25,142 bases of DNA. Origin: a virus. The position numbers and the translations under genes are program-made. The notes beneath the pieces were generated by a model, which saw only the letters and a program-made list of their open reading frames with translations, did no database searches and was not told the DNA's origin. The DNA lies in the IMG/VR virus record IMGVR_UViG_3300020220_003109, positions 1-25,142 of that record, one strand, 5' to 3'. Within the stretch, counting starts at the first letter, position 1. The number at the start of each line of letters is the position of its first letter. Below, piece after piece: positions 1,774 through 21,877 of the stretch.

Positions 1774-1779
1774 TCATAG

Positions 1780-2430
1780 CTATAGTTGATGAGAATGTTT
1801 TTTGTATTTTTTGCCTTTTCTGGCAATACTCATCGCGAGTATATGTTCTGGTGATTTAGATTTTCCTTTTAGAGAATTACTAAGCGCAGCTCTATGTTCT
1901 GGTGAAAGAGTTTTACCTTTATTGTGAGCAGATCTACCTTTGTGGGCAAAACTCATCATAGCTTTAGTTTTAGATGTATGTGTTTTCCCAAACATGGGAT
2001 GATTTTTATCTTTCTTGGCATTAGCTATCGCACGCCTATGCTCTGGTGAAAGAATTTTGCCCTTGCGAATTGCACTCATTTTAGCTTTTGTTTCTAATGA
2101 AAGAGTTTTTCCTTTGCGAATTATGCTCATTTTCGTTTTCATTTCTGGTGAAAAGTTATTACCACCATCACCACCATCTGTCATGTTGCGAAGAATACCT
2201 GTATCAAGATCTTTGCGACCATACCAGCGAATGTAACGTCGCTCTAATGCACAAGCACCAATATTTGATAGATTAGTTTCCAAAAATATTATTCTATTTT
2301 TATCTTTAGGTACTGGAATATGTTTGTGATTTGCATATGCTCTTCCATTGCAGCCCTTACCAATGTAGTAAGGTGTTCCATCTAGACGTAAATATACATA
2401 AACATAGTAGCAATAAATATTGTTTGACAT
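1780..2430 (-). CDS. GIY-YIG homing endonuclease with NUMOD3 repeats
   Basis: A 216-residue protein on the minus strand. The N-terminal GIY-YIG nuclease domain shows YVY (about 9-11), YYIGKG (21-26), Arg30 and the catalytic-type Glu63 in [11 protein letters not shown]. The C-terminal half holds several repeats of the NUMOD3 DNA-binding type (SPEHR...KGK, SLETK...RKGK), as in phage Seg-type and intron-encoded GIY-YIG enzymes. The start is supported by AAGGAG on the minus strand, 8 nt before the ATG. The gene is free-standing and antisense to both neighbours, inserted between the CobT-like and CobS-like genes. This is typical of a homing endonuclease that cuts a related genome lacking it and spreads by repair. 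No intron or intein boundary is visible. Family call is firm; the target site is unknown. Confidence 0.88.
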
Positions 2431-2515
2431 TGCTGTGTCTCCTTGATAAAGTTATAGACATAGGGTGGATGGAAGTTGGTAGCTTCGCGATCCACATCTA
2501 TTTAGCAAAAAGTCC

Positions 2516-2544
2516 TTGATTTTCCCAATCTTGTATAGTAATAT
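2516..2544 (+). promoter_or_regulatory. Candidate sigma-70-type promoter of the CobS-like gene
   Basis: TTGATT (2516-2521), a 17-nt spacer and TAATAT (2539-2544). Transcription would begin near 2551, just before AGAGGAAA and the ATG at 2569. It is a moderate consensus match and the only one seen in the 138-bp gap between the divergent endonuclease and ATPase genes. Confidence 0.45.
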
Positions 2545-2568
2545 TAGATCATAATTTGAGAGGAAAAT

Positions 2569-3786
2569 ATGTCTCTGACAAGCAAGCAGATTGCCTTCAT
2601 CAAGCTGGCAAATGACAATGGTTTTGTTGATACAATTTCTAGACAGGATGCAAAGGCGCTTTGTCTCGCACATGACTTTAAGTGGCCATCTTGGCTTGCC
2701 AAGGACGATGTACATCGTCACTCGCGAGGCGTCTATAAGCTTCCCAATATTGATAGTGAAAGTGTAAGTATGCCCAAGGTTTCCCGAGTTGATACACCCG
2801 CACCGCAGGCACCAACTTCGGCTCTAAATCTTCAGACTCTTGGTACGAACATCTCGGAATCTCTGATTCCAATGCCCAATCGCAAGTATGTGTCTTTTGG
2901 CAACTTTGCTGATGTTGAGGCTATTATTTCGTCCAACATCTTCTATCCGATCTATGTCACGGGTCTTTCTGGTAATGGAAAGACGATGATGATTGAGCAG
3001 GTCTGCGCCAAGGCTCGTCGTGAAATGGTGCGTGTAAACATCACTGCCGAGACGGATGAAGATGACCTGATTGGTGGTTTCCGTCTTGTTGATGGTCAGA
3101 CCGTGTGGCATAACGGTCCTGTCGTCATGGCGATGGAGCGTGGCGCTGTTCTTCTTCTGGACGAGGTTGACCTCGGTTCAATCAAGCTTATGTGCCTTCA
3201 GCCTGTGCTTGAAGGCAAGTCCATCTTCATCAAGAAGATCAACAAGCTTGTCCAACCTGCCAAGGGATTCACGATTGTCGCAACTGCGAACACCAAGGGT
3301 AAGGGCTCAGATGATGGTCGTTTCATCGGCACCAATGTGATGAACGAGGCTTTCCTTGAGCGTTTTTCCATTACGCTTGAGCAGGAGTATCCGCCCGCCG
3401 TCACCGAGAAGAAGATTCTTCTTAACATTTTGGATCGTTCATCGGACGATGACAAGATGTTTATTGAGATGCTTATCAAGTGGGCAGAGGCAATTCGGCG
3501 CACCTATTATGATGGTGGTGTGACCGAGATCATTTCGACTCGTCGTCTGGTTCATATCTGTGAAGCTTATAACATTTTTGCGAAGGATCGCAAGAAGGCT
3601 ATCCAGCTATGTCTTAATCGTTTTGATACTGATACCAAGACTTCGTTCATGGATTTGTATACTAAGATTGATGCTGAGGTAAATCCTCCTGCTCCAGTTG
3701 TAACGCCGGAAATTGTTGTAACTTTTCCGGAAGCTGAAAAGTCAGTTGAACAGATGATCAAGGCTGCAGACGAAATTCCGTTCTGA
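2569..3786 (+). CDS. CobS/MoxR-like AAA+ ATPase
   Basis: A 405-residue AAA+ ATPase. After an N-terminal region (about 1-100) that may bind a partner come Walker A GLSGNGKT (132-139), Walker B LLLDEVD (195-201), a sensor-1-like Asn in ATANT (238-242) and an arginine-finger region FLERF (about 262-266). The order and spacing fit the MoxR/CobS clade, whose members work with VWA proteins. The VWA partner is the gene at 1-1773, separated only by the inserted endonuclease. In bacteria CobS-CobT drive cobalt insertion by CobN. T4-like cyanophages also carry cobS-like genes, whose role is unsettled. I infer an ATP-dependent chaperone or remodeller. The start is supported by GAGGAAAAT before the ATG. 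Lys is mostly AAG, unlike the AAA-rich sugar cluster further right. Confidence 0.85.
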   Translation: MSLTSKQIAFIKLANDNGFVDTISRQDAKALCLAHDFKWPSWLAKDDVHRHSRGVYKLPNIDSESVSMPKVSRVDTPAPQAPTSALNLQTLGTNISESLIPMPNRKYVSFGNFADVEAIISSNIFYPIYVTGLSGNGKTMMIEQVCAKARREMVRVNITAETDEDDLIGGFRLVDGQTVWHNGPVVMAMERGAVLLLDEVDLGSIKLMCLQPVLEGKSIFIKKINKLVQPAKGFTIVATANTKGKGSDDGRFIGTNVMNEAFLERFSITLEQEYPPAVTEKKILLNILDRSSDDDKMFIEMLIKWAEAIRRTYYDGGVTEIISTRRLVHICEAYNIFAKDRKKAIQLCLNRFDTDTKTSFMDLYTKIDAEVNPPAPVVTPEIVVTFPEAEKSVEQMIKAADEIPF

Positions 3787-3897: not shown

Positions 3898-4167
3898 ATG
3901 GCTAAGATTTCTGCTAAGACTCGTATGCTTCAGGTTTTGAAGAGCGGCGGTGAGTATAATAGCTTTTCGGTTGCTCAGGGTCGCAATCGGTTTGGCGTAA
4001 CGAATGTTTCGGCTCGTATTGCCGAGCTTCGTGCGGATGGTCATCCGATTTATACAAACATCAAGCGTCGTGGCGATGGCAGCAAGGTTAGCGTTTATCG
4101 TCTTGGCACTCCGACCAAGGCAATGAAGGCTGCTGCTCGCAAGACGAAGACTCGTCGTTCTGCCTGA
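3898..4167 (+). CDS. Small winged-helix/HTH-like DNA-binding protein
   Basis: An 89-residue basic protein. The ATG at 3898 is chosen because GGAG lies 8 nt upstream. The sequence TRMLQVLKSGGEYNSFSVA, then VTNVSARIAELRADGHPI, then a short beta-wing (NIKRRGDGSKVSVYRL) reads as a winged helix: helix, turn, recognition helix with conserved Arg, then the wing. The tail (about 75-89) is rich in Lys/Arg. Such single-domain proteins are common in T4-like phages of alphaproteobacteria and cyanobacteria and have no assigned function. It stands alone between a consensus promoter with a palindrome and a terminator, which suggests an independently controlled, possibly autoregulated factor. Fold call is moderate; the target is unknown. 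Confidence 0.72.
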   Translation: MAKISAKTRMLQVLKSGGEYNSFSVAQGRNRFGVTNVSARIAELRADGHPIYTNIKRRGDGSKVSVYRLGTPTKAMKAAARKTKTRRSA

Positions 4168-4191
4168 TTCAATAGTTCATATTGAGTCTAT

Positions 4192-4222
4192 GAAGGGGAA
4201 GAGAAATCTTCCCCTTCTTTAT
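4192..4222 (+). terminator. Rho-independent terminator
   Basis: Perfect 10-bp stem GAAGGGGAAG / CTTCCCCTTC (4192-4201 and 4208-4217) with a 6-nt loop, followed by TTTATAT. It closes the winged-helix transcription unit 25 bp after its stop codon. Confidence 0.85.
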
Positions 4223-4278
4223 ATCTAAGAACTAAATAGGAGTATGATTTAGTAATTATTTTTTGATTGGAGTATAAC

Positions 4279-5094
4279 ATGGAAATTTCTATCTCAGTTG
4301 AAGAATTACGCAAAAGAAAGTTGTTTATTGCTACACCAATGTATGGTGGTATGGCAAATGGACTTTACATGAAGTCCTGTCTTGATCTACAATCAATTTT
4401 AAATCAGTATGGTATTGAAGCAAAGTTTTCGTTTCTGTTTAATGAATCTCTAATTACTCGTGCAAGAAATTATTTGACTGACGAGTTTTTGCGTAACGAA
4501 GGTTTTACACACCTTCTATTTCTTGATTCAGATATTCATTTCAATCCACAAGATGTTGTTACACTTCTTGCGTTAGACAAAGAAATCATTGGCGGCCCAT
4601 ATCCCAAAAAGTCAATTAATTGGGGTAATGTTGCAACTGCGGTAAAAAATAAGACAGATATAGAAGCTGGAGAACTTGAAGGCTTGGTCGGAGAATTTGT
4701 TTTTAATCCCGTTGCAGGAACAAAACAATTTACAATTACCGAGCCACTTGAGGTCATGGAAATTGGCACGGGATTTATGATGATCAAGCGTGAAGTTTTT
4801 AAGAAGTTTGAAGATGCATATCCAGAATATCGTTATAAGCCAGATCATGTTGGTCAAAAACATTTTGATGGATCACGATATATTCATGCTTATTTTGACA
4901 CAATTATTGATCGCGGACCAAATGCACCAGGCTCTTCGGAACGTTATCTCTCCGAAGATTATTTTTTCTGTCAAATGTGTCGTAAATTGAGCATTAAAGT
5001 TTGGCTGTGCCCTTGGATGAAAACACAGCATGTTGGCACATATGCCTTTACTGGTGATCTTTCAAAGATTGCACAATACACAGGACGTATATGA
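4279..5094 (+). CDS. Glycosyltransferase-like protein (GT-A fold)
   Basis: A 271-residue protein; the ATG at 4279 has TTGGAG 8 nt upstream. The N-terminal region LFIATPMYGG, the segment SLITRARNYL and the metal-binding-type motif LFLDSDIHF (DSD at 83-85) fit the nucleotide-diphospho-sugar transferase (GT-A) fold. A long insert and a C-terminal LSEDYFFCQMCRKLSIKVW follow; the SEDYFFC pattern is typical of these phage and eukaryote-like transferases. Similar proteins occur in T4-like cyanophages. Donor and acceptor cannot be read from sequence. It is apart from the large sugar cluster and overlaps the dNMP kinase by ATGA, which suggests coupled expression with a nucleotide-metabolism gene. A role in DNA-base or virion glycosylation is possible but not shown. 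Confidence 0.7.
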   Translation: MEISISVEELRKRKLFIATPMYGGMANGLYMKSCLDLQSILNQYGIEAKFSFLFNESLITRARNYLTDEFLRNEGFTHLLFLDSDIHFNPQDVVTLLALDKEIIGGPYPKKSINWGNVATAVKNKTDIEAGELEGLVGEFVFNPVAGTKQFTITEPLEVMEIGTGFMMIKREVFKKFEDAYPEYRYKPDHVGQKHFDGSRYIHAYFDTIIDRGPNAPGSSERYLSEDYFFCQMCRKLSIKVWLCPWMKTQHVGTYAFTGDLSKIAQYTGRI

Positions 5095-5738: not shown

Positions 5739-6404
5739 ATGAAATTTTCACAAGAGACGGTAAATATTTTGAAGAATTTTTCCCAAATTAATACGGGAAT
5801 TTGCTTCAAGCCAGGCAATGTGATTTCAACTATTTCACCACAGAAAAATATTTTGGTTGAAGCCACAGTCAAGGAAAACTTTCCCAAAGAATTTGGTATA
5901 TATGATCTTCCAACTTTGTTAAGTACTCTTTCTCTTAGCGGGGAAGATACCGAGTTGTCGTTTCATGAAAAGCATTTGACCATTGTCGGAAATAATGGTC
6001 GTTCAACAATCACATTTCGTTATACTGATGCATCAATGATTGTATGTCCGCCAGACAAGAAGTTGGCAGTTCCTTCACCTACTGTATCTTTTGATCTATC
6101 CGAAGTTGATCTTGCATGGATTTCGCGTTGTGCGGCTGTTCTTCAACAGCCAAACGTATCCGTAGAAAGTGATGGAAAAAAGGTGTACGTAACTACATTT
6201 GATTCTACAAATGATGCATCTCATACACAGAAACTCACGATTGCTGATGGTAATGGTGAGACGTACAAGTTTGTTCTTCGTACCGAAAATCTAAAGATTC
6301 TTTCTACCGATTATAAGGTAGATGTAACAAAGGGAATTGTCACTTTCTCTGGTAAGAACATACCAATCAAGTATTGGATTGCAACTGAAAAGCCAAAGGA
6401 GTAA
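5739..6404 (+). CDS. 45: DNA polymerase sliding clamp (gp45)
   Basis: A 221-residue protein (T4 gp45 is 228). The opening MKFSQETVNILKNFSQINTG matches the T4 opening closely, followed by IYDLPTLLSTLSL (T4 IYDLNGFLGILSL), NGRSTITF and the C-terminal beta-strand GIVTFSGKN. It forms the trimeric ring that tethers DNA polymerase to DNA and, in T4, also activates late transcription. GGAG lies 7 nt before the ATG. First gene of the operon read from the promoter at 5682; genes for the loader (44 and 62) follow. Family call is firm. Confidence 0.95.
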   Translation: MKFSQETVNILKNFSQINTGICFKPGNVISTISPQKNILVEATVKENFPKEFGIYDLPTLLSTLSLSGEDTELSFHEKHLTIVGNNGRSTITFRYTDASMIVCPPDKKLAVPSPTVSFDLSEVDLAWISRCAAVLQQPNVSVESDGKKVYVTTFDSTNDASHTQKLTIADGNGETYKFVLRTENLKILSTDYKVDVTKGIVTFSGKNIPIKYWIATEKPKE

Positions 6405-6704: not shown

Positions 6705-7646
6705 ATGTCTAATAATGATCAATTTTTGTGGACCGAAAAGTATCGACCACAAAAAGTTGCAGATTGCATTCTTCCAGAAAGTATAAAGAGTGTTTTTCAG
6801 GAATATGTAAATAAAAAGAATATTCCGAATCTCCTTTTGACAGGTGGCCCTGGTGTTGGTAAAACCACTATTGCCAAGGCTATGTGTAATGAAGTTGGTT
6901 GTGACTTCATGGTGATCAATGGTTCCGATGAACGTGGTATTGATGTTCTTCGCTACAAGATCAAGACATATGCATCTTCCATGAGTTTTTCTGGCGGAAG
7001 AAAAGTCATCATCATTGATGAAGCAGACTATCTAACACCAGACACGCAAGCAGCCATGCGAGCTGCCATTGAAGAGTTTGCCTCAAACTGTTCTTTTATC
7101 TTTACTTGCAACTACAAGGCTCGTTTAACTCCGGCCATTCATTCACGCTGTTCCGTCATCGAATTTAAGATCAAGAATGGAAATAAGGTGAAGATGGCAG
7201 CTGGTTTTCTAAAGAGAATCCAGAATATACTTGATCGGGAAAAGATCAAGTATGATAATGGCGCCATTGTTCAGATCATTCAAAAGCATTTTCCAGATTA
7301 TCGCCGTGTATTGAATGAGTTGCAGAGATATGCAGTTTGCGGTGAGATTGATTCTGGAGTGCTTGCACAAGTTGGTGATGTTAATCTAAAGGAACTTGTT
7401 GATTTCTTGAAGAAGAAAGACTTCACATCCATGCGTAAATGGGTTGCAACAAACTCTGATGCCGATCAAAATAAAATCTTTCGTCAGATCTATGATGCGT
7501 TGTATGATATCGTGCAACCACAGTCTATTCCACAGACTGTAATTGTGTTGGCCGATTATCAGTACAAGTCTGCTTTTGTTGCCGATCAAGAAATAAATAT
7601 GGTTGCATGTTTGACAACCATCATGATGGAGTGTTCGTTCAAGTGA
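6705..7646 (+). CDS. 44: Clamp-loader large subunit (gp44), AAA+ ATPase
   Basis: A 313-residue AAA+ protein (T4 gp44 is 319). Motifs: WTEKYRP near the N-terminus, Walker A GGPGVGKT (47-54), Walker B IIIDEAD with DEAD at 105-108, and the SRC motif (147-149) with its arginine finger. With gp62 it opens the sliding clamp and loads it at primer-template junctions using ATP. GGAG stands 7 nt before the ATG. Its stop is shared with the GTG start of the next gene (GTGA), so the inserted GIY-YIG gene, not gene 62, is directly coupled to it. Firm call. Confidence 0.95.
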   Translation: MSNNDQFLWTEKYRPQKVADCILPESIKSVFQEYVNKKNIPNLLLTGGPGVGKTTIAKAMCNEVGCDFMVINGSDERGIDVLRYKIKTYASSMSFSGGRKVIIIDEADYLTPDTQAAMRAAIEEFASNCSFIFTCNYKARLTPAIHSRCSVIEFKIKNGNKVKMAAGFLKRIQNILDREKIKYDNGAIVQIIQKHFPDYRRVLNELQRYAVCGEIDSGVLAQVGDVNLKELVDFLKKKDFTSMRKWVATNSDADQNKIFRQIYDALYDIVQPQSIPQTVIVLADYQYKSAFVADQEINMVACLTTIMMECSFK

Positions 7647-8260: not shown

Positions 8261-8688
8261 TGGATCTATTCAAGGATATTATACCCTCAATTCAAAAGAC
8301 AAAAAAGGACTTGTCAAATGAGCCAGACTTTAAAAAGTCGTATAACGCATTTGTGGTCAATCGTGCGCTATCATATCATGTGGATTCTATACTCTACGCC
8401 AATGAAATGAATAGTAGGCATGGACTGGACGAAAATCTACAATATCATTTTTATCTAAATACTATAAGATCTATGAAACGCAAGTTTCAGCCGTGGGTCA
8501 AAAAAGAGAAGAATGATATTCTGGAGGCCGTAAAAGAGTACTACCAGTTTTCTAACGCAAAGGCATTAGAGGCAATGCGTCTTCTCTCCACTGATCAGGT
8601 TGATCATATAATAACTATAACAAAAAAAGGTGGAGTGAGTAATGTGGAGCGTAGAGGACATGGTGGAGGTGACGCTAAAAGAGCGTGA
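8260..8688 (+). CDS. 62: Clamp-loader small subunit (gp62)
   Basis: A 142-residue protein (T4 gp62 is 187). It opens MDLFKD as T4 opens MSLFKD, and SYNAFVVNRALSYHVDSILY followed by YHFYLNTIRSMKRKFQPWVK parallels the T4 segment YSKFMVENALSQ...[20 protein letters not shown]. It is the non-ATPase subunit of the gp44/62 clamp loader. The start overlaps the previous stop (TAATG), with AAGGA 11 nt upstream. The C-terminus is short and its last 47 nt overlap the start of regA in another frame; the end (GGVSNVERRGHGGGDAKRA) looks unstructured, as if shaped by that overlap. Position just before regA supports the call. Confidence 0.85.
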   Translation: MDLFKDIIPSIQKTKKDLSNEPDFKKSYNAFVVNRALSYHVDSILYANEMNSRHGLDENLQYHFYLNTIRSMKRKFQPWVKKEKNDILEAVKEYYQFSNAKALEAMRLLSTDQVDHIITITKKGGVSNVERRGHGGGDAKRA

Positions 8689-9049
8689 TGACTTCCTAAA
8701 AGTCAAAGAAACACTAACTAGAATAGGCGTAGCTTCGAAGAAAGACCAAACACTTTATCAGTCTTGTCATATTCTTCACAAGCAAGGTAAATACTACATC
8801 GCACATTTTAAGGAATTATTTGCACTTGATGGTAAGCCAACAAACTTTTCAGAGGGTGATGTCGCAAGAAGAAACTCAATTGCAAATTTACTAGCAGAAT
8901 GGGGTTTGATAGCAATTGTGAAGCCAGAAAAGACCACAGATCCAGTATCACCTCTAAATCAAATCAAGATATTAGCTTTCAAAGATAAAAATGATTGGCA
9001 ACTTGTAGCAAAATACAATATTGGTAAGAAAAAAATTGAAACTGAATAA
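8642..9049 (+). CDS. regA: RegA translational repressor
   Basis: A 135-residue protein (T4 RegA is 122). DDFLKVKETLTRIGVA, then LYQSCHILHKQGKYYIAHFKE and the block SIANLLAEWGLIAIV match T4 RegA nearly residue for residue. RegA binds the start regions of early phage mRNAs and blocks ribosome loading; its T4 targets include genes 44, 45 and regA itself. The start at 8642 is preferred because GGAG is 6 nt upstream. The ATG at 8660 aligns with T4's start but has its GAGG only 2 nt away. The product thus carries six extra N-terminal residues. It begins inside gene 62 (47-nt overlap). In T4 the polymerase gene 43 follows; here dut does. Confidence 0.95.
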   Translation: MWSVEDMVEVTLKERDDFLKVKETLTRIGVASKKDQTLYQSCHILHKQGKYYIAHFKELFALDGKPTNFSEGDVARRNSIANLLAEWGLIAIVKPEKTTDPVSPLNQIKILAFKDKNDWQLVAKYNIGKKKIETE

Positions 9050-10165: not shown

Positions 10166-10200
10166 AGTCACCGTGAACAGAAAGTTCACGGTGACTTTCT
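10166..10200 (+). terminator. Strong terminator hairpin after hsp20
   Basis: Perfect 13-bp stem AGTCACCGTGAAC / GTTCACGGTGACT (10166-10178 and 10184-10196) with a 5-nt loop, followed by a short, broken T tract (TTCTATCT). Confidence 0.8.
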
Positions 10201-10219: not shown

Positions 10220-10576
10220 ATGGAACAATACTGGGGTTATCACACCATGCTTGATTGTCGCGCTTGTGATATTGAATCAATTAAGAGTCATGATAATATC
10301 TATAATTTTGCTAAAAGTCTTGTGAATGCAATTGATATGAAAGCTTTTGGGGAACCCCAGATTGTTCACTTTGGCGAAGGAAATAAAGCAGGTTATACAC
10401 TTGTTCAACTCATTGAAACAAGCAATATCTGTGCTCATTTCTGCAATGATTCAGGTGATGCATACATTGATGTATTCTCTTGCAAACCTTATGATCGTGA
10501 TGTTGTTCGCGATGAGATTATCAAGTTCTTCAATCCTCGTCAAATTACAGTAAATTATATTGAACGACAGGCATAA
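10220..10576 (+). CDS. Divergent SpeD-family pyruvoyl decarboxylase (phage type)
   Basis: Start at ATG 10220, AAAGGA 7 nt upstream; 118 residues. The fold-defining SpeD pattern is present (IVHFGEGNKAGYTLVQLIE, then AYIDVFSC). Aligned to the classical SpeD next door, the pyruvoyl-forming Ser68, processing His73 and Cys88 keep exact 5- and 20-residue spacing, as in Thermotoga SpeD (Ser63, His68, Cys83). But the residue before the cleavage serine is Thr, not Glu, and the HTWPE motif of AdoMet decarboxylases reads HFCND. Phage proteins annotated speD in T4-like cyanophages look like this form. It should self-cleave and decarboxylate something; substrate may be AdoMet or a basic amino acid, since SpeD homologues with altered substrate have been reported (from memory). 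Confidence 0.75.
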   Translation: MEQYWGYHTMLDCRACDIESIKSHDNIYNFAKSLVNAIDMKAFGEPQIVHFGEGNKAGYTLVQLIETSNICAHFCNDSGDAYIDVFSCKPYDRDVVRDEIIKFFNPRQITVNYIERQA

Positions 10577-10578
10577 AA

Positions 10579-10926
10579 ATGAGTGGCGTATCATATATGG
10601 GTCGCCATGTCATTGCCGATCTTCATAATGTATCAACTGAAATTCTTGGCTCCATCAATTTTTGGAAAGATATTCTAATTGATGGAGCCATAAAATCCGG
10701 TGCCACAGTTCTAAGTGATCACTTTCATCATTTCGGAGATGGTTATGGTATTACCGGTGTAATTATTTTGGCCGAGAGTCATATTTCAATTCATACTTGG
10801 CCAGAAAAAAACTATGCAGCAATTGATGTGTTCATGTGCGGCACTTGCGATCCTGAGGTTGCAATAGATCATATTACAAGCAAGATAAATACTTTTGTTA
10901 AGAAAGACTTGATTTATCGTAAATAA
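10579..10926 (+). CDS. speD: S-adenosylmethionine decarboxylase proenzyme (classical SpeD)
   Basis: A 115-residue protein with the canonical SpeD signature: MGRHVIADL near the N-terminus, GATVL, and LAESHISIHTWPE. Ser67 after Glu66 is the autocleavage site that becomes the pyruvoyl cofactor; His72 and Cys87 stand at the usual spacing. The enzyme decarboxylates AdoMet to supply aminopropyl groups for spermidine. No spermidine synthase (speE) is seen in the window. Its start lies 2 nt after the previous stop with a weak ribosome-binding site, so it is probably coupled to the upstream paralogue. ATG at 10597 is an alternative start that would trim six residues. Firm family call. Confidence 0.92.
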   Translation: MSGVSYMGRHVIADLHNVSTEILGSINFWKDILIDGAIKSGATVLSDHFHHFGDGYGITGVIILAESHISIHTWPEKNYAAIDVFMCGTCDPEVAIDHITSKINTFVKKDLIYRK

Positions 10927-10961: not shown

Positions 10962-11285
10962 ATGAGATATATTGGATACTCAGTCTCTCGCTGTGTGCGT
11001 GATATTGTAAAAAAACGCATCAATATCTACGCCATAGAAATTATTATTGGTCGCACTTCAATAGAAAATGAGCAACATGTTGCTGAAGTTGCTCGCTCAT
11101 ATCATAATCTACCAAAAAATGATTATCATTCTTGGTATGATTTGGATTATAATGCGTGTCATTCAGTTCTTTTAGAACTATATCGTGACGGTAAATTACA
11201 TCAGCCAAAATTATTTGGTAAGTATCCTATTCGTATGGATAATCATTGGGGTGTAATTTCACCATTTCCCATGAGCGCATTTTGA
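10962..11285 (+). CDS. Unknown small phage protein
   Basis: A 107-residue protein that I do not recognise. It starts well (TTTTGGAGA 6 nt before the ATG). Visible traits are an N-terminal basic segment (RDIVKKR), a middle with several His and Trp/Tyr pairs (YHSWYDLDYNACH) and a C-terminus rich in Pro and aromatic residues. There is no signal peptide, membrane segment or recognised motif. It follows a candidate promoter and its stop overlaps the start of the first glycosyltransferase (TGATG), so it may be the first gene of the sugar operon. Confidence 0.7.
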   Translation: MRYIGYSVSRCVRDIVKKRINIYAIEIIIGRTSIENEQHVAEVARSYHNLPKNDYHSWYDLDYNACHSVLLELYRDGKLHQPKLFGKYPIRMDNHWGVISPFPMSAF

Positions 11286-12010
11286 TGAAAGCCGTTGTTA
11301 TCATACCAACAACGGGCGACAAGAAAGTCTTACAAGCAATTAAGAGCGTTGAAAATCAAACTTACGCTAATACAAGTTATCTCATCGTTGTTGATGGTGA
11401 CAAGTTCAAGCATGAGTTTGATGATCTATTTGTAAATTCCAATTTTTACACGCCACCAAAAGATGTTGTGTATTTAAAGTACAATACTGGAGCTAATGGT
11501 TTTTATGGACATCGTATATATGCAGCATTTTCACATCTTGTAAACGAAGACATTATTCTTTTTCTAGATCAAGATAATTGGTTTGAATCTAATCATGTTG
11601 AGAATCTTGTTGAAACAATAAAAACACAAAATCTTGCATGGGCTCATAGTCTTCGCAATATCTATGACAAAAATGATAATTTTCTTTGTGAAGATGATTG
11701 TGAAAGTCTAGGCAAATGGCCAGCATGGAATGGACTTGACAATTTTCATGTAGATACATCTTCATATGCATTTAGACGAGAGTTTCTCATACAAGTTGCA
11801 TCTTTATGGCACTCTGGTTATGCGGGAGATCGTCGCTTTTTTAATATAGTTAAATCAATACCAAATGCACCATACGGAACGAGTGGCGTATATACATTGA
11901 ATTATAGGCTTGATGGTAATCCAAATTCAGCATCACCAGAATTTTTTCTACATGGCAACAAGATGATGGAACAAAAATATTACGGAAAATTTCCTTGGAG
12001 AAAATTATGA
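11285..12010 (+). CDS. Family-2-type glycosyltransferase
   Basis: A 241-residue GT-A glycosyltransferase. It opens with a family-2 core: AVVIIPTTGDKKVLQAIKSV, ENQTYANTSYLIVVDGD and the metal-binding FLDQDNW (DQD at 95-97), then acceptor-side features (DTSSYAFRREFL, GYAGDRRFF). The donor sugar is not predictable. The start is shared with the previous stop (TGATG). The last 69 nt of this gene are included in the first copy of a 102-bp tandem duplication; the stop at 12008-12010 lies inside that copy and overlaps the start ATG of the short stub ORF (ATGA). No membrane segment is seen. Confidence 0.85.
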   Translation: MKAVVIIPTTGDKKVLQAIKSVENQTYANTSYLIVVDGDKFKHEFDDLFVNSNFYTPPKDVVYLKYNTGANGFYGHRIYAAFSHLVNEDIILFLDQDNWFESNHVENLVETIKTQNLAWAHSLRNIYDKNDNFLCEDDCESLGKWPAWNGLDNFHVDTSSYAFRREFLIQVASLWHSGYAGDRRFFNIVKSIPNAPYGTSGVYTLNYRLDGNPNSASPEFFLHGNKMMEQKYYGKFPWRKL

Positions 12011-12145
12011 GCAACATAAAAATTGAATACATGCAAAAATATGTTTTTTCTACATGGTAACAAGATGATGGAACAAAAATATTACGGAAAATTTCCTTGG
12101 AGAAAATTATGAGCAACATAAAAATTGAATACATGCAAAAATATG
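11942..12145 (+). repeat. 102-bp tandem duplication (two copies, one mismatch)
   Basis: Copy 1 is 11942-12043 and copy 2 is 12044-12145. They differ only at 11956 (C) versus 12058 (T). Each copy holds the end of the glycosyltransferase gene, a GGAG ribosome-binding site (11997-12000 and 12099-12102) and the ATG plus first 12 codons of the next gene. The unit is 34 codons exactly, so the duplication keeps frame. The near-identity indicates a recent event. Confidence 0.97.
12007..12060 (+). pseudogene. Stub ORF: duplicated start of the next gene
   Basis: The first copy of the duplication carries a start (12007) with its own GGAG and encodes 17 residues, MSNIKIEYMQKYVFSTW, before TAA (12058-12060). 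The first 12 residues equal those of the real gene at 12109. The TAA exists only because of the single C-to-T difference between the copies. With C the frame would read through copy 2 and add 34 residues to the next protein. Probably translated as a short by-product and without function. Confidence 0.6.
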
Positions 12146-12687
12146 GATCAAATAAAGTTTTTGTGGAAACAGGAACATATTTGGGTGATACTGTTCAACT
12201 TGCACTAGATGCGGGATTTGATTTTGTTCATACAATTGAAGTAAACCAAGGTATGTATGATAAATGCAATTCTCGTTTTCAGAATAATGATAAAGTAAAA
12301 TTGTGGCTTGGCGATTCGGTAGATATTATTCCAAAAATTGTAGACGAACTAACAGAACCCGCAACATTTTGGCTTGATGCACATGCAAGCGGCCCATTAC
12401 CGGGAGGAAGATATGCACCTTGTCCTCTTATTTTGGAGCTAGAAGCTATCTATGGTAAAAAGAAATTACAATTTACTGAGAATGAAACAAAAGTATTTCG
12501 TGAAAAGTCTTCCATTAATACACATACAATTATGATCGATGATCGTCGTCTTTTGGGCTCAGCTGAATGGGGATATGTGCAAGAAAAGCAAATTATGGAT
12601 CTTATTTTTGCCATAAATTCAAATTATAAGATTCATTATCTTGATGGTCATCAAGCAAACGATATCATTTGTGCTACGGTGAAATGA
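12109..12687 (+). CDS. Rossmann-fold methyltransferase-like protein
   Basis: A 192-residue protein; start at 12109 (second copy of the duplicated start), GGAG 6 nt upstream. KVFVETGTYLGDTVQLAL resembles motif I of class I AdoMet methyltransferases, followed by the acidic HTIEVN (motif II), LWLGDS and ATFWLDAHASG (motif IV region), then TIMIDDRRLL. Proteins of this pattern, common in environmental viruses and polysaccharide clusters, are annotated as SAM-dependent methyltransferases, usually without experimental support. In a sugar cluster it would methylate a sugar or an acceptor; the substrate is unknown. A TTG in frame at 12097 could extend it by four residues but is unneeded. Confidence 0.65.
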   Translation: MSNIKIEYMQKYGSNKVFVETGTYLGDTVQLALDAGFDFVHTIEVNQGMYDKCNSRFQNNDKVKLWLGDSVDIIPKIVDELTEPATFWLDAHASGPLPGGRYAPCPLILELEAIYGKKKLQFTENETKVFREKSSINTHTIMIDDRRLLGSAEWGYVQEKQIMDLIFAINSNYKIHYLDGHQANDIICATVK

Positions 12688-12688
12688 T

Positions 12689-13552
12689 ATGAAAGATCTT
12701 ATTCTTGGATGTATAACAAATTATACTTTTGATAAAGTTGCAAACTGGGCAAACTCAATTGATCGTTCTGGTTTTGATGGACATAAAGTTGTCATAGCAT
12801 ACAATGTTGGCTTTGATATTGTAGATGAACTTACCAAAAGAAATTACACCGTAGTTACTTTCAATCGTGATGACGCAAATAGAAAATTTACATATCGTGA
12901 GAATTTTAATATTGTAGTTGATCGTTTTTATCATTCATGGCGTGTGTTAAACAATATTGAAGATCAAATAAGATATGTGATTGCTACGGATGTTAGGGAT
13001 ATTATATTTCAACGTAATCCAACGGAATGGTTAGATAATCTTTCTTCTTCTCATTCGAATACATTGATCGCTTCTACAGAAGGAATTAGATACAAGAATG
13101 AGGTTTGGGGAAACAATAATATGAGATCAAGTTTTCCTTTTGTTCATGAATACATGTCAAATAGAGTAATCTATAATGCTGGAGTGATAACGGGAAAGTC
13201 ACATACAATCAAGGATTTATTCTTGAATATCTATATGATTTGTGCTAACATGCCACATACTATTCCTGGTGGTGGTGGACCTGATCAAGCAGCATATAAT
13301 ATATTATTGACAATGAAGCAATATGAAAGTATTACTAGATTTACAAATGCAAAAGATGCATGGGCCGCACAACTTGGAACAGTTGCGGATCCCAGCAAGA
13401 TAAATCAATATAGACCGCATTTGACAGACTTTGAACCAATAATAAAAAATGGTGAAGTCTTGAACAATGAAGGTCATAAGTATTACATCGTACATCAGTA
13501 TGATAGAATACCAAATCTTCTTCCACTAATAAATTTAAAATATGGAATGTGA
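12689..13552 (+). CDS. Glycosyltransferase-like protein (nucleotide-diphospho-sugar fold)
   Basis: A 287-residue protein. Features of GT-A sugar transferases: an N-terminal strand DLILGCITNYTFDKV, a DxRD-type metal motif in YVIATDVRDIIFQRNP and the later NAGVITGKS followed by GGGGPDQAAYNILL, the N-G-V and D-Q pair typical of GT8-like and related families. I cannot assign a family number or donor. It starts 1 nt after the previous stop, so translation is coupled, and it ends with a Tyr-rich segment. There is no membrane segment; a soluble cytoplasmic enzyme is expected. Confidence 0.65.
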   Translation: MKDLILGCITNYTFDKVANWANSIDRSGFDGHKVVIAYNVGFDIVDELTKRNYTVVTFNRDDANRKFTYRENFNIVVDRFYHSWRVLNNIEDQIRYVIATDVRDIIFQRNPTEWLDNLSSSHSNTLIASTEGIRYKNEVWGNNNMRSSFPFVHEYMSNRVIYNAGVITGKSHTIKDLFLNIYMICANMPHTIPGGGGPDQAAYNILLTMKQYESITRFTNAKDAWAAQLGTVADPSKINQYRPHLTDFEPIIKNGEVLNNEGHKYYIVHQYDRIPNLLPLINLKYGM

Positions 13553-13553
13553 A

Positions 13554-14189
13554 ATGTCAGACATAATTAAAATCAACACGGCAACAAATTCATTTAAAAA
13601 AGTAGACAAGCCATTGACAATTGCGGAATATAAACAACAGGGAAAGTGGCCTTTTGATTTTATTTCAGGAAAAGGTCTTGTTAATGTAATTAATGATCAT
13701 TCTGTTCGTTTGAACAGAAATGTTGTAGGGCTTGAAATTGGTATTTGTAAAGGGGAAAACATTGTTCACTTTTTAGAACAAACAAATAGAATTGATAAAA
13801 TTTATTGTATTGATCCATATCTTCCTTATATGGATTGGGTTGGTCCCGTCACTCAAGAAGATATGGACCTTTGGTATGATATAACAATAAAAAACTTTGC
13901 GCCACATGCAGACAAGATTGTCATGTACAAAGAGGCATCTGATAAGTGTGTAAACAAATTTGAAAATAATCAATTTGACTATATTTTTATTGATGGTGAT
14001 CATTCGTATCAAGGTGTGACTAATGACTTAAATAACTTTTATGATAAACTAAAAATGGGTGGTATCTTTTCAGGTCATGATATTAATTTACCAGATGTTC
14101 AGAGAGCCTTGTCTGAATTTAGATCAACAAAAAATATTCAGAATGAAATGAAATTTACTGATATAAATGTTTGGTACTGGATAAAGTAA
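13554..14189 (+). CDS. Class I SAM-dependent methyltransferase (Methyltransf_24-like)
   Basis: Start at 13554, 1 nt after the previous stop; ATG at 13542 would overlap more and is less likely. The 211-residue product has a clear class I fold: motif I GLEIGICKGE (59-68), motif II YCIDPYL (84-90), and FDYIFIDGDHSYQGV followed by LKMGGIFSGHDI, the hallmark of the Methyltransf_24/TylF-type sugar and macrolide O-methyltransferases. The role would be O-methylation of a sugar. It ends TAATG into the fucosyltransferase gene, suggesting joint action on the same glycan. Confidence 0.8.
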   Translation: MSDIIKINTATNSFKKVDKPLTIAEYKQQGKWPFDFISGKGLVNVINDHSVRLNRNVVGLEIGICKGENIVHFLEQTNRIDKIYCIDPYLPYMDWVGPVTQEDMDLWYDITIKNFAPHADKIVMYKEASDKCVNKFENNQFDYIFIDGDHSYQGVTNDLNNFYDKLKMGGIFSGHDINLPDVQRALSEFRSTKNIQNEMKFTDINVWYWIK

Positions 14190-15058
14190 TGGAGAAAAAA
14201 CCATTAAAAGTTGGATTTGTTGATGTATGTACTTCTGAATTTTACGAAACAATATTGTCACAAAGATATAAATTAACAATAGATAATGAAAATCCAGATT
14301 TTCTTTTCTTTGGCGATGAAAATTTTGGAACAAGAAATTTACAATATTCAAAAGATAAATGCATAAAGATTTTTCATACGGGTGAAAATCGTAGACCAGA
14401 AAACTATGATTGTCATTATGCAATGACATTTGATCACAATTTCAATTCGTGGCATTATAGATTACCTGGTTGGGCTTTAGTTCCATTCTTCTATAAAAAA
14501 TTTGAATTTAATCATATATTCAATGCACATAATATTAGACATCCAAAAACAAAATTCTGTGTATTCATTCATAGAAATGGAAACAACAACGTAAGAAATG
14601 CTGCTTTTCACGAATTGTGCAAGTATAAAAAAGTTGATAGTGCTGGACCACTATTTAACAACATAGGTGCTGTGATTAGTCCTGACTATGATGCAAAACT
14701 TGATTTTATCAAGGATTATAAGTTTGTTCTCTCGTTTGAGAATAGCCCTCATCCGGGATATGTTACTGAAAAAATCATGGATGGTTTTTATGTGAATTCA
14801 GTTCCAATTTACTGGGGTTCGTCAACAGTTGATCTAGACTTCAATGAAAATTCATTTATCAATGCGGGTAAATTTAATTCAATGCAATCGCTAATTGATC
14901 ATATTATAAAAGTAGATAATGATGATGATCTATATAATAAGATGATGTCTGAATCTAAATTAAAATATGGTATTCCGCCATCTTGTTTGATTTATGAAAA
15001 TTTCTTAAATTGGTTTGATGCTATTGTATATAATAAAATTAATTCGAGAATTAAATGA
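14189..15058 (+). CDS. GT10-family fucosyltransferase
   Basis: A 289-residue protein; start ATG at 14189 shares the previous stop (TAATG). The C-terminal half carries the GT10 alpha-1,3/1,4-fucosyltransferase signature: FVLSFENSPHPGYVTEKI, then VPIYWGSSTVDLDFNENSFI (178-224). Upstream VRNAAFHELCKYKKVDSAG and FNNIG correspond to the Arg-Asn...YK.VDSGG...NNIG block of bacterial and animal GT10 enzymes. GT10 enzymes transfer fucose from GDP-fucose, forming for example Lewis-type structures, or act on related GDP-sugars. A GDP-L-fucose-synthase-type gene lies at 17972. The N-terminus lacks the membrane anchor of animal enzymes. Firm family call; acceptor unknown. Confidence 0.9.
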   Translation: MEKKPLKVGFVDVCTSEFYETILSQRYKLTIDNENPDFLFFGDENFGTRNLQYSKDKCIKIFHTGENRRPENYDCHYAMTFDHNFNSWHYRLPGWALVPFFYKKFEFNHIFNAHNIRHPKTKFCVFIHRNGNNNVRNAAFHELCKYKKVDSAGPLFNNIGAVISPDYDAKLDFIKDYKFVLSFENSPHPGYVTEKIMDGFYVNSVPIYWGSSTVDLDFNENSFINAGKFNSMQSLIDHIIKVDNDDDLYNKMMSESKLKYGIPPSCLIYENFLNWFDAIVYNKINSRIK

Positions 15059-16032
15059 AAAAACATAAAAAGATTATAGTATGGGGCGCAAAATATGAAA
15101 CAGGTCATACCCATGCATTTACACATGCTGCCTTTGTCAAAGGTGCCCAATATTTAAATGAAGAAGTTTATTGGCTAGATGACACCGATAATGTTGATCC
15201 TTCATTTTTTGACGATTCATTGATTGTATCAGAACATTGGATAGCAACAACACATCCAAGAAGTCATCGTTTGCCTCTAAGAAAATCATCAACATATTTC
15301 ATGAATTATCTTGGTAATAAGAAAGGCACAAATAATCCAGGTGCTTCACATTATCTTGATAAAGTTGGTAGAATAATAGATTTTAGATTTGCAAACGACT
15401 GGTCTGATAATTACTGGGAATACAAGTATGAACCAGTAAAGTATATTTCTATCAATGATGGATTTTCGCATCTTGAAAAGGGCGAAGAATATGATAATTT
15501 CTATAGCATGTGGGCTACGGATCTCATGCCAAACGAGATCAACTTTGATGATTGTCTAACACCTTGGAAAGAACCTAAGCATGTGTTTTTTTCGGGAACA
15601 ATTCGTCAAGATAATCAAGACCAATTTGAGCCATTCATTCGCGCATGTAAAGAAAATTCTATGACATTTTATTTTAATGATGTTTGGCGTCAGGTGTTAA
15701 CAATTGAATCTGTAAAGCAAGCATCACTTGATGCATTTTTGGCATTGGAATTACGTCCAAAGTTTCATGTTGATATCGGATATAAATCATGTCGTGCATT
15801 CAAAATTATTAGCTATGGACAACTCGGAATGACAAACTCACGCGCTGTGTATGATTTTTTTGATCAAGAAATAGCATTTCATGAGGACCCATATCAACTA
15901 TTTCATATCGCTTCTGAAATGAGAAATAATGTAAAGACAAGAGATTTGATGTTAAATCAAATGAAAAAAGTTAAAGAAAAGCATACATACGCTAGTAGAA
16001 TGAAGGATATTATTACGGCTTGTGAAATGTGA
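15055..16032 (+). CDS. Glycosyltransferase-like protein (CgeB-like, GT-B fold)
   Basis: A 325-residue protein overlapping the previous gene as ATGA. The N-terminal IIVWGAKYETGHTHAF is Rossmann-like. The C-terminal part (KHVFFSGTIRQDN, PKFHVDIGYKSCRAFKIISYGQLGMTNSRAVYDFF, and a final KEKHTYASRMKDII) resembles the C-terminal domain of CgeB-like glycosyltransferases, which end HTYxxR and place donor-binding residues around a Gly-rich turn. The middle is rich in aromatic and acidic residues. Family is probable but not certain; donor and acceptor are unknown. Confidence 0.55.
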   Translation: MKKHKKIIVWGAKYETGHTHAFTHAAFVKGAQYLNEEVYWLDDTDNVDPSFFDDSLIVSEHWIATTHPRSHRLPLRKSSTYFMNYLGNKKGTNNPGASHYLDKVGRIIDFRFANDWSDNYWEYKYEPVKYISINDGFSHLEKGEEYDNFYSMWATDLMPNEINFDDCLTPWKEPKHVFFSGTIRQDNQDQFEPFIRACKENSMTFYFNDVWRQVLTIESVKQASLDAFLALELRPKFHVDIGYKSCRAFKIISYGQLGMTNSRAVYDFFDQEIAFHEDPYQLFHIASEMRNNVKTRDLMLNQMKKVKEKHTYASRMKDIITACEM

Positions 16033-16039
16033 GGTTATT

Positions 16040-16981
16040 ATGAATACCATTTTGGTTACTGGTGGTGCTGGTTATATTGGTAGTATTTTTGTAGATCAAT
16101 TGTTAAAAATAGGTAATTATAAAGTTTGTGTAATTGACAATTTATATTACAACAATCAATCATCTTTAAATCACTTGATGCATAACAATCTTCTTGAAGT
16201 ACGAAGAGGTGATGTGCGAAAGCCAAGCGATATAGATCCATTACTCAAGAAAGCAGACATTATTATTCCACTGGCTGCTCTGGTTGGTGCACCAATATGT
16301 AATAGAGATCCGGTTGCAGCATCTTCCACAAATAAAGATGCAATATTCGATATGCTGGATAAGATTAGTCCAAATCAAACAGTAATTATGCCAACAACAA
16401 ATAGTGCATATGGTTCTGGAAACAATGATAATTTTTGTACTGAAGAGTCTCCGCTAAATCCAATTTCACTTTATGCAAAAGACAAAGTTGAAGTTGAAAA
16501 GAGACTAATGCAACATCAAAACGCAATTAGTTTACGACTAGCCACAGTATTTGGTATGTCTCCTCGTATGCGTCTTGATCTTCTAGTGAACGACTTTACA
16601 TATCGTGCTGTGCATGATGGATTTGTTGTTTTATTTGAAAGTCATTTCAAAAGAAATTATATTCATGTTCGTGATGTATCAAATACATTTATCCATTGCA
16701 TAAACAACTTCGATACAATGAATGGACAAATTTATAATGTAGGTCTTTCAAACGCGAACATATCAAAGCTTGAATTGTGCAAGACGATCAAGAATTTTAT
16801 TCCAAAGTTTACCTTCATGGAAGCACCATATGGACAAGATCCGGATCAAAGAAACTATATAGTATCAAATGCAAAGATTGAAGCAACAGGATTTAATCCA
16901 GAGTTTTCTCTGCAAGAAGGTCTTGTTGAATTAATCAAGGGTTATGAACTTATTCGTAATACTCGTCATGGAAATGTGTAA
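16040..16981 (+). CDS. NAD-dependent sugar epimerase/dehydratase (extended SDR)
   Basis: Start at 16040 (GAGGTT 5 nt upstream, just after the previous stop); 313 residues. An extended short-chain dehydrogenase: GGAGYIG (8-14) binds NAD, with the catalytic-type pair Tyr145 and Lys149 in YAKDK after TTNSAYGSG. The substrate loop ends NYIHVRDV. Closest in pattern to nucleotide-sugar 4-epimerases and dehydratases; reaction and donor are unassigned. The 27-nt stretch 16058-16084 is identical to 18934-18960 in the second epimerase. It overlaps the next gene, a sugar kinase, as TAATG. Confidence 0.8.
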   Translation: MNTILVTGGAGYIGSIFVDQLLKIGNYKVCVIDNLYYNNQSSLNHLMHNNLLEVRRGDVRKPSDIDPLLKKADIIIPLAALVGAPICNRDPVAASSTNKDAIFDMLDKISPNQTVIMPTTNSAYGSGNNDNFCTEESPLNPISLYAKDKVEVEKRLMQHQNAISLRLATVFGMSPRMRLDLLVNDFTYRAVHDGFVVLFESHFKRNYIHVRDVSNTFIHCINNFDTMNGQIYNVGLSNANISKLELCKTIKNFIPKFTFMEAPYGQDPDQRNYIVSNAKIEATGFNPEFSLQEGLVELIKGYELIRNTRHGNV

Positions 16982-17964
16982 TGATCATAATTAGAACTCC
17001 GTATAGAATTTCATTCTTTGGTGGCGGCACAGATTATCCTGCTTGGTATAGGGAGCATGGCGGCTGTGTTTTGTCCACCTCTATAAACAAGTGTAGTTTT
17101 CTTGTTCTTAGAAAACTACCAGAAATATTTGACTATAGATACAAGATTCGTTACTTCAATGATGAAACAACAAAGTCTGTAGACGATATTCAGATACCAG
17201 TCATTCGCGAAGCAATTAAATACATGAACTTTGAAGATGGTCTTGATATTACCCATCATGGTGATCTACCAAATCGCACAGGTATTGGATCAAGTTCAAG
17301 TTTTACAGTTTCTCTTATTCACGGATTAGCTACTCTTAAAAATGAACAAATTACCAAAAGAGATCTTGCTCGCAAATCAATCTATCTAGAGCAAAATGTT
17401 CTTCGTGAGGCAGTAGGATCACAAGATCAAGTTGCTGCAGCATTTGGTGGATTTAATAAAATTGAGTTTGGTGGATACACAGATTTTACATGTTATTCAT
17501 TACATCTAAAGAAAGATATTCTACAAGAACTTGAGTCGTGGGTTCAATTGTTCTTTACCGAAAAACTTCGCAATTCATTTGATATTGCTGAAAAGAAAAT
17601 AATCAATATTAGTTCAAAGAAGATTGATCTAAACATTATGAAAGACTTGACACACGAAGCAGAGCGTGTGTTATATGAACACAGAATATATGACTTTGCA
17701 AATCTTCTCAATGATCAATGGAAATTAAAAAAGAATATGGAATCATCAATTACGAATACTGAGATTGATGACATCTATGATAAAGGCATTCAAGCCGGAG
17801 CTGTTGGTGGAAAACTTCTTGGTGCTGGTGGTGGCGGATTTATTCTTTTTCTAACACCACCACACATGCAAAAGAAAGTTGCAGAAAAACTAAGACTTAG
17901 ACAAGTACCACTAAATTTTGATTATTTGGGAAGTCAATTAATTTATCACGATTATCAAAACTGA
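16981..17964 (+). CDS. HddA-type sugar kinase (GHMP family)
   Basis: A 327-residue GHMP kinase. Motif 1 RTPYRISFFGGGTDYP, motif 2 LPNRTGIGSSSSF (96-108), the ATP loop, and motif 3 GGKLLGAGGGGFILF. Length and the FGGGTDYP opening fit D-glycero-alpha-D-manno-heptose 7-phosphate kinase (HddA), which makes heptose 1,7-bisphosphate for GDP-heptose synthesis. Other GHMP sugar kinases of the same type cannot be excluded, since the sugar is not fixed by the motifs. No GmhA, GmhB or HddC is seen in the window, so the host or other phage genes must supply the rest. It is tightly packed (TAATG before, 7 nt after). Confidence 0.8.
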   Translation: MIIIRTPYRISFFGGGTDYPAWYREHGGCVLSTSINKCSFLVLRKLPEIFDYRYKIRYFNDETTKSVDDIQIPVIREAIKYMNFEDGLDITHHGDLPNRTGIGSSSSFTVSLIHGLATLKNEQITKRDLARKSIYLEQNVLREAVGSQDQVAAAFGGFNKIEFGGYTDFTCYSLHLKKDILQELESWVQLFFTEKLRNSFDIAEKKIINISSKKIDLNIMKDLTHEAERVLYEHRIYDFANLLNDQWKLKKNMESSITNTEIDDIYDKGIQAGAVGGKLLGAGGGGFILFLTPPHMQKKVAEKLRLRQVPLNFDYLGSQLIYHDYQN

Positions 17965-17971
17965 GGTTATC

Positions 17972-18922
17972 ATGAAAAAGATTTATGTTGCAGGTCACGC
18001 AGGTCTTGTTGGATCTGCCATTGTTAGAATGTTGCGAGAACAAGGTGAAACAAATATTATTACACGCACATCAAAAGAACTTGATTTAACAAACCCTATT
18101 GCAGTTAAAAATTTCTTTAAGCAAGAAAAACCAGATCAGGTTTACCTTGCTGCTGCAAAAGTTGGCGGTATTGTGGCAAACAATACTTTTCCAGCTGACA
18201 TGATTAATATAAATCTTCGTATACAAACAAATGTGATTGATACTGCATACCTTTATGGTGTAAATAATTTATTGTTTTTAGGCTCGACATGCATTTACCC
18301 TCGTGAATGTCCTCAACCAATTAAAGAAGAATATCTACTAACTGGTCATCTTGAAATTACAAATGATGCATATGCAATTGCAAAGATTGCAGGAATCAAG
18401 ATGTGTCAAGCATATAATCGCCAACACGGAACTGATTATCGTGCTGTCATGCCTAGCAATGTATATGGTCCTGGTGATAACTTTCATCCAGAAAACAATC
18501 ATCTTGCTGCTGGATTGATGCGTAAGTTTCATGAGGCAAAGTTTAGTAAAACAAAGGCAGTTCTATGGGGAACTGGAACTCCTCGTCGTGAATTTCTATA
18601 TTGCGATGATCTTGCTCGTGGTTGTATTCATGTATTGAATGCACCAAAAGAAGACTTTGCAAAGACAGGCGGATTTGTAAATCTTGGTCCAGGTTATGAT
18701 CTTAAAATTTGTGACTTTGCTGAAATACTTGCAAAAGTTGTGGGGTATAATGATAATTTTCTATATGACACATCTCGTCCTGATGGAACAATGCGTAAGT
18801 TGACCGATGTATCAAAAGCACATGCACTTGGTTGGAGACCGCAGATTTCTATTGAAGAGGGATTAAAAACAATGTATAATTGGTATGTTGATGGTCTCAA
18901 AAATGGAATAGTAAGAACATGA
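17972..18922 (+). CDS. fcl: GDP-L-fucose synthase
   Basis: A 316-residue SDR that matches E. coli Fcl (WcaG) closely: GHAGLVGS (8-15), LGSTCIYP with Ser105 and Cys107, NDAYAIAKIAGIKMCQAY with Tyr134 and Lys138, PSNVYGPGDNFHP and a conserved His-containing segment. Fcl epimerises GDP-4-keto-6-deoxy-mannose at C3 and C5 and reduces C4 with NADPH, giving GDP-L-fucose. GMD, the dehydratase before it, is not in the window. The donor may feed the GT10 transferase at 14189. Related enzymes act on GDP-6-deoxy-heptose intermediates, so, given the HddA-type kinase next door, a heptose version is possible. Leader TGAGGTTATCATG is nearly that of the gene at 16040. Confidence 0.9.
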   Translation: MKKIYVAGHAGLVGSAIVRMLREQGETNIITRTSKELDLTNPIAVKNFFKQEKPDQVYLAAAKVGGIVANNTFPADMININLRIQTNVIDTAYLYGVNNLLFLGSTCIYPRECPQPIKEEYLLTGHLEITNDAYAIAKIAGIKMCQAYNRQHGTDYRAVMPSNVYGPGDNFHPENNHLAAGLMRKFHEAKFSKTKAVLWGTGTPRREFLYCDDLARGCIHVLNAPKEDFAKTGGFVNLGPGYDLKICDFAEILAKVVGYNDNFLYDTSRPDGTMRKLTDVSKAHALGWRPQISIEEGLKTMYNWYVDGLKNGIVRT

Positions 18923-19890
18923 GATACGTTGTAACTGGTGGTGCTGGTTATATTGGTAGTCATGTAGTTGATGAACTACTAAGACGCGGTCATGAAGTTG
19001 TGGCCGTAGATAATCTTTCAACTGGTCAAATAAAATTTATTCAGCATAATTTGGATAATAAGAATTTTACTTTTGTTCAAGATGATATCAACGGAAATCT
19101 TTCTTATCTTACAAATACTGATGCAGTATATCATTTTGCTGCGAATGCCGACATAAGAAAAGGATTCAAGAATCCAAATCTTGACTTCAAGAATAACATT
19201 GAAGGCACAATGAATATATTACAAGCCATGAATTATCATGGTGTCAAGAGAATCATATTTGCATCAACATCAGCTGTATTGGGTGAGATTGATCAAAATA
19301 GATTACCCGCTTCTGAAACAATTTCAATGCCTGAACAAACATCTTTATATGGTGCGTCAAAGTTGGCTGGAGAAGGATTTATTTCGGCCTTTTGCGAGGG
19401 ATTTAATTTTGAAGCATATGTATTTCGTTTTGTGACTGTTCTTGGTCCTAGATATCCTCATGGATTTGCATTTGATTTTGTAAAGAAGTTATTGACTAAT
19501 CCTTATTATCTTGAAGTTCTTGGCGATGGAACAGGAATTAAAAGCTCCATACATGTTTCTGATGTAGTTTCTGCTGTCACAATGATAGGAGAAGATATTA
19601 GACCAGCAAGAGACAAGAAAAGAAAATATGAAGTGTTCAACATTGGTAATGATAAAACATATCGTGTATCAGATGCTGCACAGTGGGTTGCTCATGCTAT
19701 GGGTTTGACACCAAAAATAGTATATGGAAATACTCTAAAGGGCTGGCCGGGAGATATACCCTATATTCATCTTGACACATCCAAGATCAAGACATACGGA
19801 TGGAAATCAAATTATACATCAAAGCAAGCAATATATGAAACTGTAGACTGGCTTACACATAATCATTGGATATATGAGGTGCGTGAATGA
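18919..19890 (+). CDS. UDP-sugar 4-epimerase (GalE-like, extended SDR)
   Basis: A 323-residue extended SDR overlapping fcl as ATGA. GGAGYIGSH (7-15), HFAANADIR, ASTSAVLGE and YGASKLAGE with Tyr144 and Lys148. It ends with a GalE-like segment (WPGDIPYIHLDTSKI then YGWKSNYT). Overall pattern is nearest UDP-glucose/UDP-N-acetylglucosamine 4-epimerases. Donor not fixed. Start region shares a 27-nt identical stretch with the epimerase at 16040, the two genes being otherwise diverged. It is followed by an ATGA overlap with a nucleotidyltransferase. Confidence 0.82.
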   Translation: MRYVVTGGAGYIGSHVVDELLRRGHEVVAVDNLSTGQIKFIQHNLDNKNFTFVQDDINGNLSYLTNTDAVYHFAANADIRKGFKNPNLDFKNNIEGTMNILQAMNYHGVKRIIFASTSAVLGEIDQNRLPASETISMPEQTSLYGASKLAGEGFISAFCEGFNFEAYVFRFVTVLGPRYPHGFAFDFVKKLLTNPYYLEVLGDGTGIKSSIHVSDVVSAVTMIGEDIRPARDKKRKYEVFNIGNDKTYRVSDAAQWVAHAMGLTPKIVYGNTLKGWPGDIPYIHLDTSKIKTYGWKSNYTSKQAIYETVDWLTHNHWIYEVRE

Positions 19891-21876: not shown

Positions 21877-21877
21877 T

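Follow-up and report, generated by a model that had tools for sequence, protein, structure and literature searches.

This locus raises the question of why a phage would carry two adjacent SpeD-family genes, and whether both encode the same decarboxylase. The window, that is, the whole stretch of DNA analyzed, covers 25,142 bases of an IMG/VR virus record. Open reading frame coordinates and matches to the Pfam model AdoMet_dc (PF02675) confirmed the two neighboring genes of the first-pass annotation, which lie on a common strand with 2 nt between them (10577-10578) and are called SpeD1 and SpeD2 here (Table 1). The gene content of the window is T4-like, the closest relatives of the clamp loader are found in cyanophages and Methylophilales phages (56-58%), and a search for psbA, an indicator of a cyanobacterial host, found none. 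Genes for a dUTPase and an Hsp20 precede the pair. The hairpin between Hsp20 and SpeD1 has 13 pairs in a terminator scan and an RNA fold of -29.6 kcal/mol (z -5.15), and it probably ends the transcript upstream of SpeD1; because it separates the pair from Hsp20, the pair looks like its own unit.

Table 1. Positions of the gene pair, its predicted cleavage sites and neighboring features in the window.
Feature	Position	Strand	Description
SpeD1	10220..10576	+	118 aa, ATG start, TAA stop; predicted pyruvoyl-dependent L-ornithine decarboxylase (SpeDC type)
SpeD2	10579..10926	+	115 aa; predicted class 1b S-adenosylmethionine decarboxylase proenzyme
Ser68 codon of SpeD1	10421..10423	+	predicted pyruvoyl/cleavage serine (T. 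maritima S63); from sequence and alignment
Ser67 codon of SpeD2	10777..10779	+	predicted pyruvoyl/cleavage serine; from sequence and alignment
Terminator-like hairpin	10166..10196	+	13-bp perfect stem between Hsp20 and SpeD1
Sliding clamp	5739-6404		match to annotated phage sliding clamps
Clamp loader	6705-7646
RegA-type translational regulator	8642-9049

Elsewhere in the window, positions 11246-24609, downstream of the pair, hold a long series of genes of the glycosyltransferase, methyltransferase and sugar-nucleotide types, the last including epimerase/dehydratase, kinase and nucleotidyltransferase look-alikes (translations judged by eye). An ORF containing NUMOD3 at 1780-2430 on the minus strand resembles a GIY-YIG homing endonuclease by eye, with flanking genes on the opposite strand, and a protein of 584 aa bearing a DWSGSMS motif, together with an AAA_5 ATPase (19-3786), resembles a CobT/CobS-like pair.

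Both proteins scored far over the PF02675 cut-off of 25 bits (SpeD1, 71.7 bits, E 7.7e-20; SpeD2, 108 bits, E 3.9e-31). The catalytic triad equivalent to S63/H68/C83 is Ser68, His73 and Cys88 in SpeD1 (motif ETSNICAHFCND) and Ser67, His72 and Cys87 in SpeD2 (motif AESHISIHTWPE), with His at +5 and Cys at +20 from Ser in each; the identical spacing and the motifs quoted earlier for both genes all agree with the sequence. Values of dN/dS were 0.02-0.04 for SpeD1 and 0.03-0.09 for SpeD2, indicating strong purifying selection on both, and therefore both are real, maintained genes.

SpeD2 scored 117.6 bits against TIGR03330, the AdoMet decarboxylase (AdoMetDC) equivalog with a cut-off of 75.65 bits, and matched T. 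maritima AdoMetDC with an E of 3e-23. It carries ESHISIHTWPE, in which Pro75 of HTWPE is the conserved Pro after the catalytic His, and in the tree its companions on the AdoMetDC side include T. maritima 1TLU and the SpeD of cyanophage S-PM2, an assayed enzyme; both are of class 1b and match it in sequence and motif. Judged by its sequence, SpeD2 is a typical AdoMet decarboxylase of class 1b. Neither ESH nor HTWPE, the residues of that class, is present in SpeD1, which reached only 35.0 bits against TIGR03330 and has Asn76 (HFCND) in place of the conserved Pro.

In the available text of Li et al. (JBC 2023, PMC10407285), the conserved Pro marks true AdoMetDCs against arginine decarboxylases (ADCs), whereas Gln, Thr, Phe and Tyr are diagnostic of SpeDC, the name of the ornithine type, a pyruvoyl-dependent ornithine decarboxylase derived from SpeD. 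SpeDC enzymes are described there from phages, bacteria and archaea (PMC9992855; PMC10407285), and five freshwater phage SpeDCs of 117-122 aa are reported as ornithine decarboxylases by assay (PNAS 2023, PMC9992855). SpeD1 has all four residue types, as Gln63, Thr67, Phe74 and Tyr82, in columns inferred from the text of the paper (PMC10407285). None of these positions varies among the 23 diverse viral relatives in the alignment, and the full set is present in 246 of 257 SpeD1-like matches, whose loci overlap between scans and are not all independent. The predicted structure of SpeD1 (pLDDT 95.4) aligns with T. maritima AdoMetDC (1vr7) at a TM of 0.87 and an rmsd of 1.6 A, and the length, fold and catalytic Ser/His/Cys are those of the SpeDCs as described, which occur in freshwater myophages (PMC9992855; PMC10407285). 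The assayed phage SpeDCs (LBP, UCP01-04) were not found among the phage-collection matches to SpeD1. What sets SpeD1 apart from the SpeDCs as described is its place in a T4-like phage, only 2 nt ahead of the gene for a true AdoMetDC.

The tree suggested by the first-pass annotation, one with neofunctionalised SpeD homologues, was built from 65 proteins without the assayed SpeDC sequences, so the placement of SpeD1 relies on the published description and on bacterial homologues with the same motif. SpeD1 fell into a 36-row cluster of SpeDC-type proteins from viruses and bacteria, with a support of 84/93, which is not decisive; phage phiN3 branches next, then the pelagiphage ADCs, and all of these split from the AdoMetDCs with a support of 99/90. 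This layout agrees with the published one as its text describes it. The earlier description of the two genes as paralogues holds only in a deep sense. A single SpeD1/SpeD2 clade was rejected (p-AU 1.4e-11), and therefore the pair is not a recent duplication; an identity of 31% across 106 aligned positions also speaks against recent tandem duplication. SpeD1 and SpeD2 share an ancient origin and have come to be neighbors. Constraining SpeD1 to the AdoMetDCs in an AU test gave p 0.13; as SpeD1 by itself can be placed at the foot of the deep branch between the two sides, this result does not distinguish the ideas.

A scan of bacterial genomes with the SpeD1 alignment returned 287 confirmed relatives, the best 80 of which share 44-60% identity, the top one 60%. 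In marine Alphaproteobacteria (e.g., L178) and in a gammaproteobacterium from Lake Baikal (L191), the gene order is SpeDC, spermidine synthase (SpeE), true SpeD, and the synthases of these two scored 281 and 286 bits against TIGR00417. Such a speDC-speE-speD operon covers the whole path from ornithine to spermidine, of which the phage pair holds the two decarboxylases. Bacterial speD-speDC-speE clusters and SpeD-SpeDC fusions from Anaerolinea, Atribacteria and Desulfotignum phosphitoxidans, as reported in the available text (JBC 2023, PMC10407285), likewise encode the two activities together, but the phage pair consists of separate genes in a phage genome, and the phage contigs lack speE. Other bacterial SpeDC homologues, those of the SMVQLIETSLISAHFAN type, are followed immediately by genes for a GNAT-domain protein, an ATP-grasp enzyme and a PLP decarboxylase (L193 4965-8909, L239 4965-8864), possibly a small specialised-metabolite cluster instead of one for spermidine synthesis. 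The earlier proposals that the first gene has a different substrate and that the two genes jointly give two decarboxylations toward spermidine are both well supported by the four SpeDC-type residues, the tree grouping and the homologous bacterial operons; of the two substrates given there as examples, ornithine is favored over arginine.

We consider it highly probable that SpeD1 is a phage SpeDC making putrescine and SpeD2 an AdoMetDC, and that the pair feeds a spermidine synthase. The present analysis contributes to this reading the fold, the catalytic residues, the family placement, the conservation and the gene order in phages and bacteria. By analogy with published assays on relatives, SpeD1, with its AdoMetDC fold, would cleave itself at Thr67-Ser68, Ser68 would become the pyruvoyl cofactor, and the enzyme would convert L-ornithine to putrescine; SpeD2 would decarboxylate AdoMet, likewise through self-cleavage and a pyruvoyl group. 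Made from one two-gene unit, the two proteins would supply both substrates of spermidine synthase, and the presumed benefit to the phage is drawn from the same assays. The last step, joining putrescine and decarboxylated AdoMet, would use host SpeE, since no spermidine synthase is present in the related contigs of 142 and 197 kb. More broadly, the synthase was absent from all 23 phage contigs behind the loci, and a search of 24 records (these contigs and Microcystis phage MaAM05) found it only in MaAM05; no PLP ornithine/arginine decarboxylase was found in the six records tested. All the phage contigs are classed as possible fragments, so these absences are not proof.

The survey of viruses comprised 82 distinct viral SpeD1 proteins, with pairing defined as a SpeD within 900 nt. 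SpeD1 was alone in 47, with room on both sides, and paired in 22, where the partner was an HTWPE-type SpeD downstream (16) or upstream (3) or an HWYNE-type downstream (3); 12 were close to contig ends and 1 was a split copy. SpeD1 is the sole AdoMet_dc gene in contigs of 159 and 174 kb, and those of 142 and 197 kb have exactly the pair. Most related phages, including those of the 159-174 kb contigs, carry SpeD1 alone, so SpeD1 does not need SpeD2. On a poorly resolved tree, at least 7 changes between the paired and the single state were counted, so that phages have acquired or lost the pairing several times. Partners with ESHLSWHWYNE, which lack the conserved Pro, were seen in L018 (3261-3614), L025 (4358-4711), L028 (4358-4711) and L063 (4281-4763); the HWYNE type is rare, with closely related copies (67-100% identical) on 5 contigs in one viral scan. 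In L028, a single short contig, the SpeD1 copy (4001-4354) reads ETRNICAHF and should not self-process because Arg replaces the cleavage serine. In L049 (2793-3887, minus strand), and also in L050, a 365-aa ORF that points away from a SpeD1 gene has an AdoMet_dc domain with an HSWWE motif and, after it, a weak match to GIY-YIG. MaAM05 (L083 4983-7761) has in one run speD, another speD that lacks the SpeDC residues, speE and an agmatinase gene, which suggests an arginine route to spermidine.

These distributions bear on the idea, also raised by the first-pass annotation, that the two proteins form one mixed enzyme. An obligate mixed enzyme resembling trypanosome AdoMetDC with its prozyme would be in keeping with adjoining genes and with class 1b enzymes being dimers. 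However, SpeD1 is often alone, even as the one AdoMet_dc gene of near-genome-length contigs, and no SpeD1 lies within 3 kb at 70 of 80 SpeD2-type loci. From phage to phage, the order of the two genes can be reversed and the partner can be of another type. The prozyme arrangement has one dead partner that always accompanies an active one, whereas both proteins here have the full catalytic triad. An obligate heteromer is thus not supported, nor is a mixed enzyme needed, and we regard the obligate form as extremely unlikely. A pair acting as a metabolic unit, in which a mixed oligomer would couple the supply of putrescine and decarboxylated AdoMet for host spermidine synthase, is improbable too, if somewhat less so.

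Phage SpeD homologues can also be arginine decarboxylases, as in pelagiphage HTVC201P according to the available text (PNAS 2023, PMC9992855), and SpeD1 could be such a SpeDA, yielding agmatine. The HTVC201P enzyme, whose gene stands alone, is likewise a neofunctionalised phage SpeD, the pelagiphage ADCs have the Gln and Thr of SpeD1 and branch beside the SpeDC-type group, and the assayed phage SpeDC UCP01 is reported to accept arginine too (PMC9992855). However, in HTVC201P and S35C6 the His is followed by Ser in place of Phe and the Tyr is missing, and the HTVC clade excludes SpeD1 with a support of 100/96. No arginase/agmatinase-family gene was found in the window or the related 142-197 kb contigs (six records, possible fragments), whereas MaAM05, whose second SpeD is not of the SpeDC type, does carry an agmatinase. 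We therefore find arginine very improbable as the substrate. There is less still to be said for SpeD1 having remained an AdoMetDC with an altered loop, like the SpeD of phiN3, which is the best match among named phages (32%), shares Q, F and Y with SpeD1, and complemented an AdoMetDC mutant, restoring spermidine in E. coli, as described in PMC9992855. At the position of the Thr of SpeD1 and the SpeDC-type proteins, phiN3 carries Asp; it branches outside their group, and a second AdoMetDC would be redundant beside SpeD2, making this reading a most unlikely one.

As to a phage SpeDC next to an AdoMetDC, our preferred reading, the ornithine-type SpeD was already known in phages, and its combination with SpeD is neat but expected. 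The pairing of the two in phages is not mentioned in the available text of PMC9992855 or PMC10407285, and the adjacent phage pair, seen for 22 of the 82 distinct SpeD1 proteins from viruses, is a modest addition. With it, phages would carry the two steps that make the precursors of spermidine next to each other, in fewer than 710 bases and without a PLP enzyme. Hundreds of viral genes likely to be annotated as AdoMet decarboxylases are probably ornithine decarboxylases, and their reannotation as such would alter the reading of viral polyamine metabolism.
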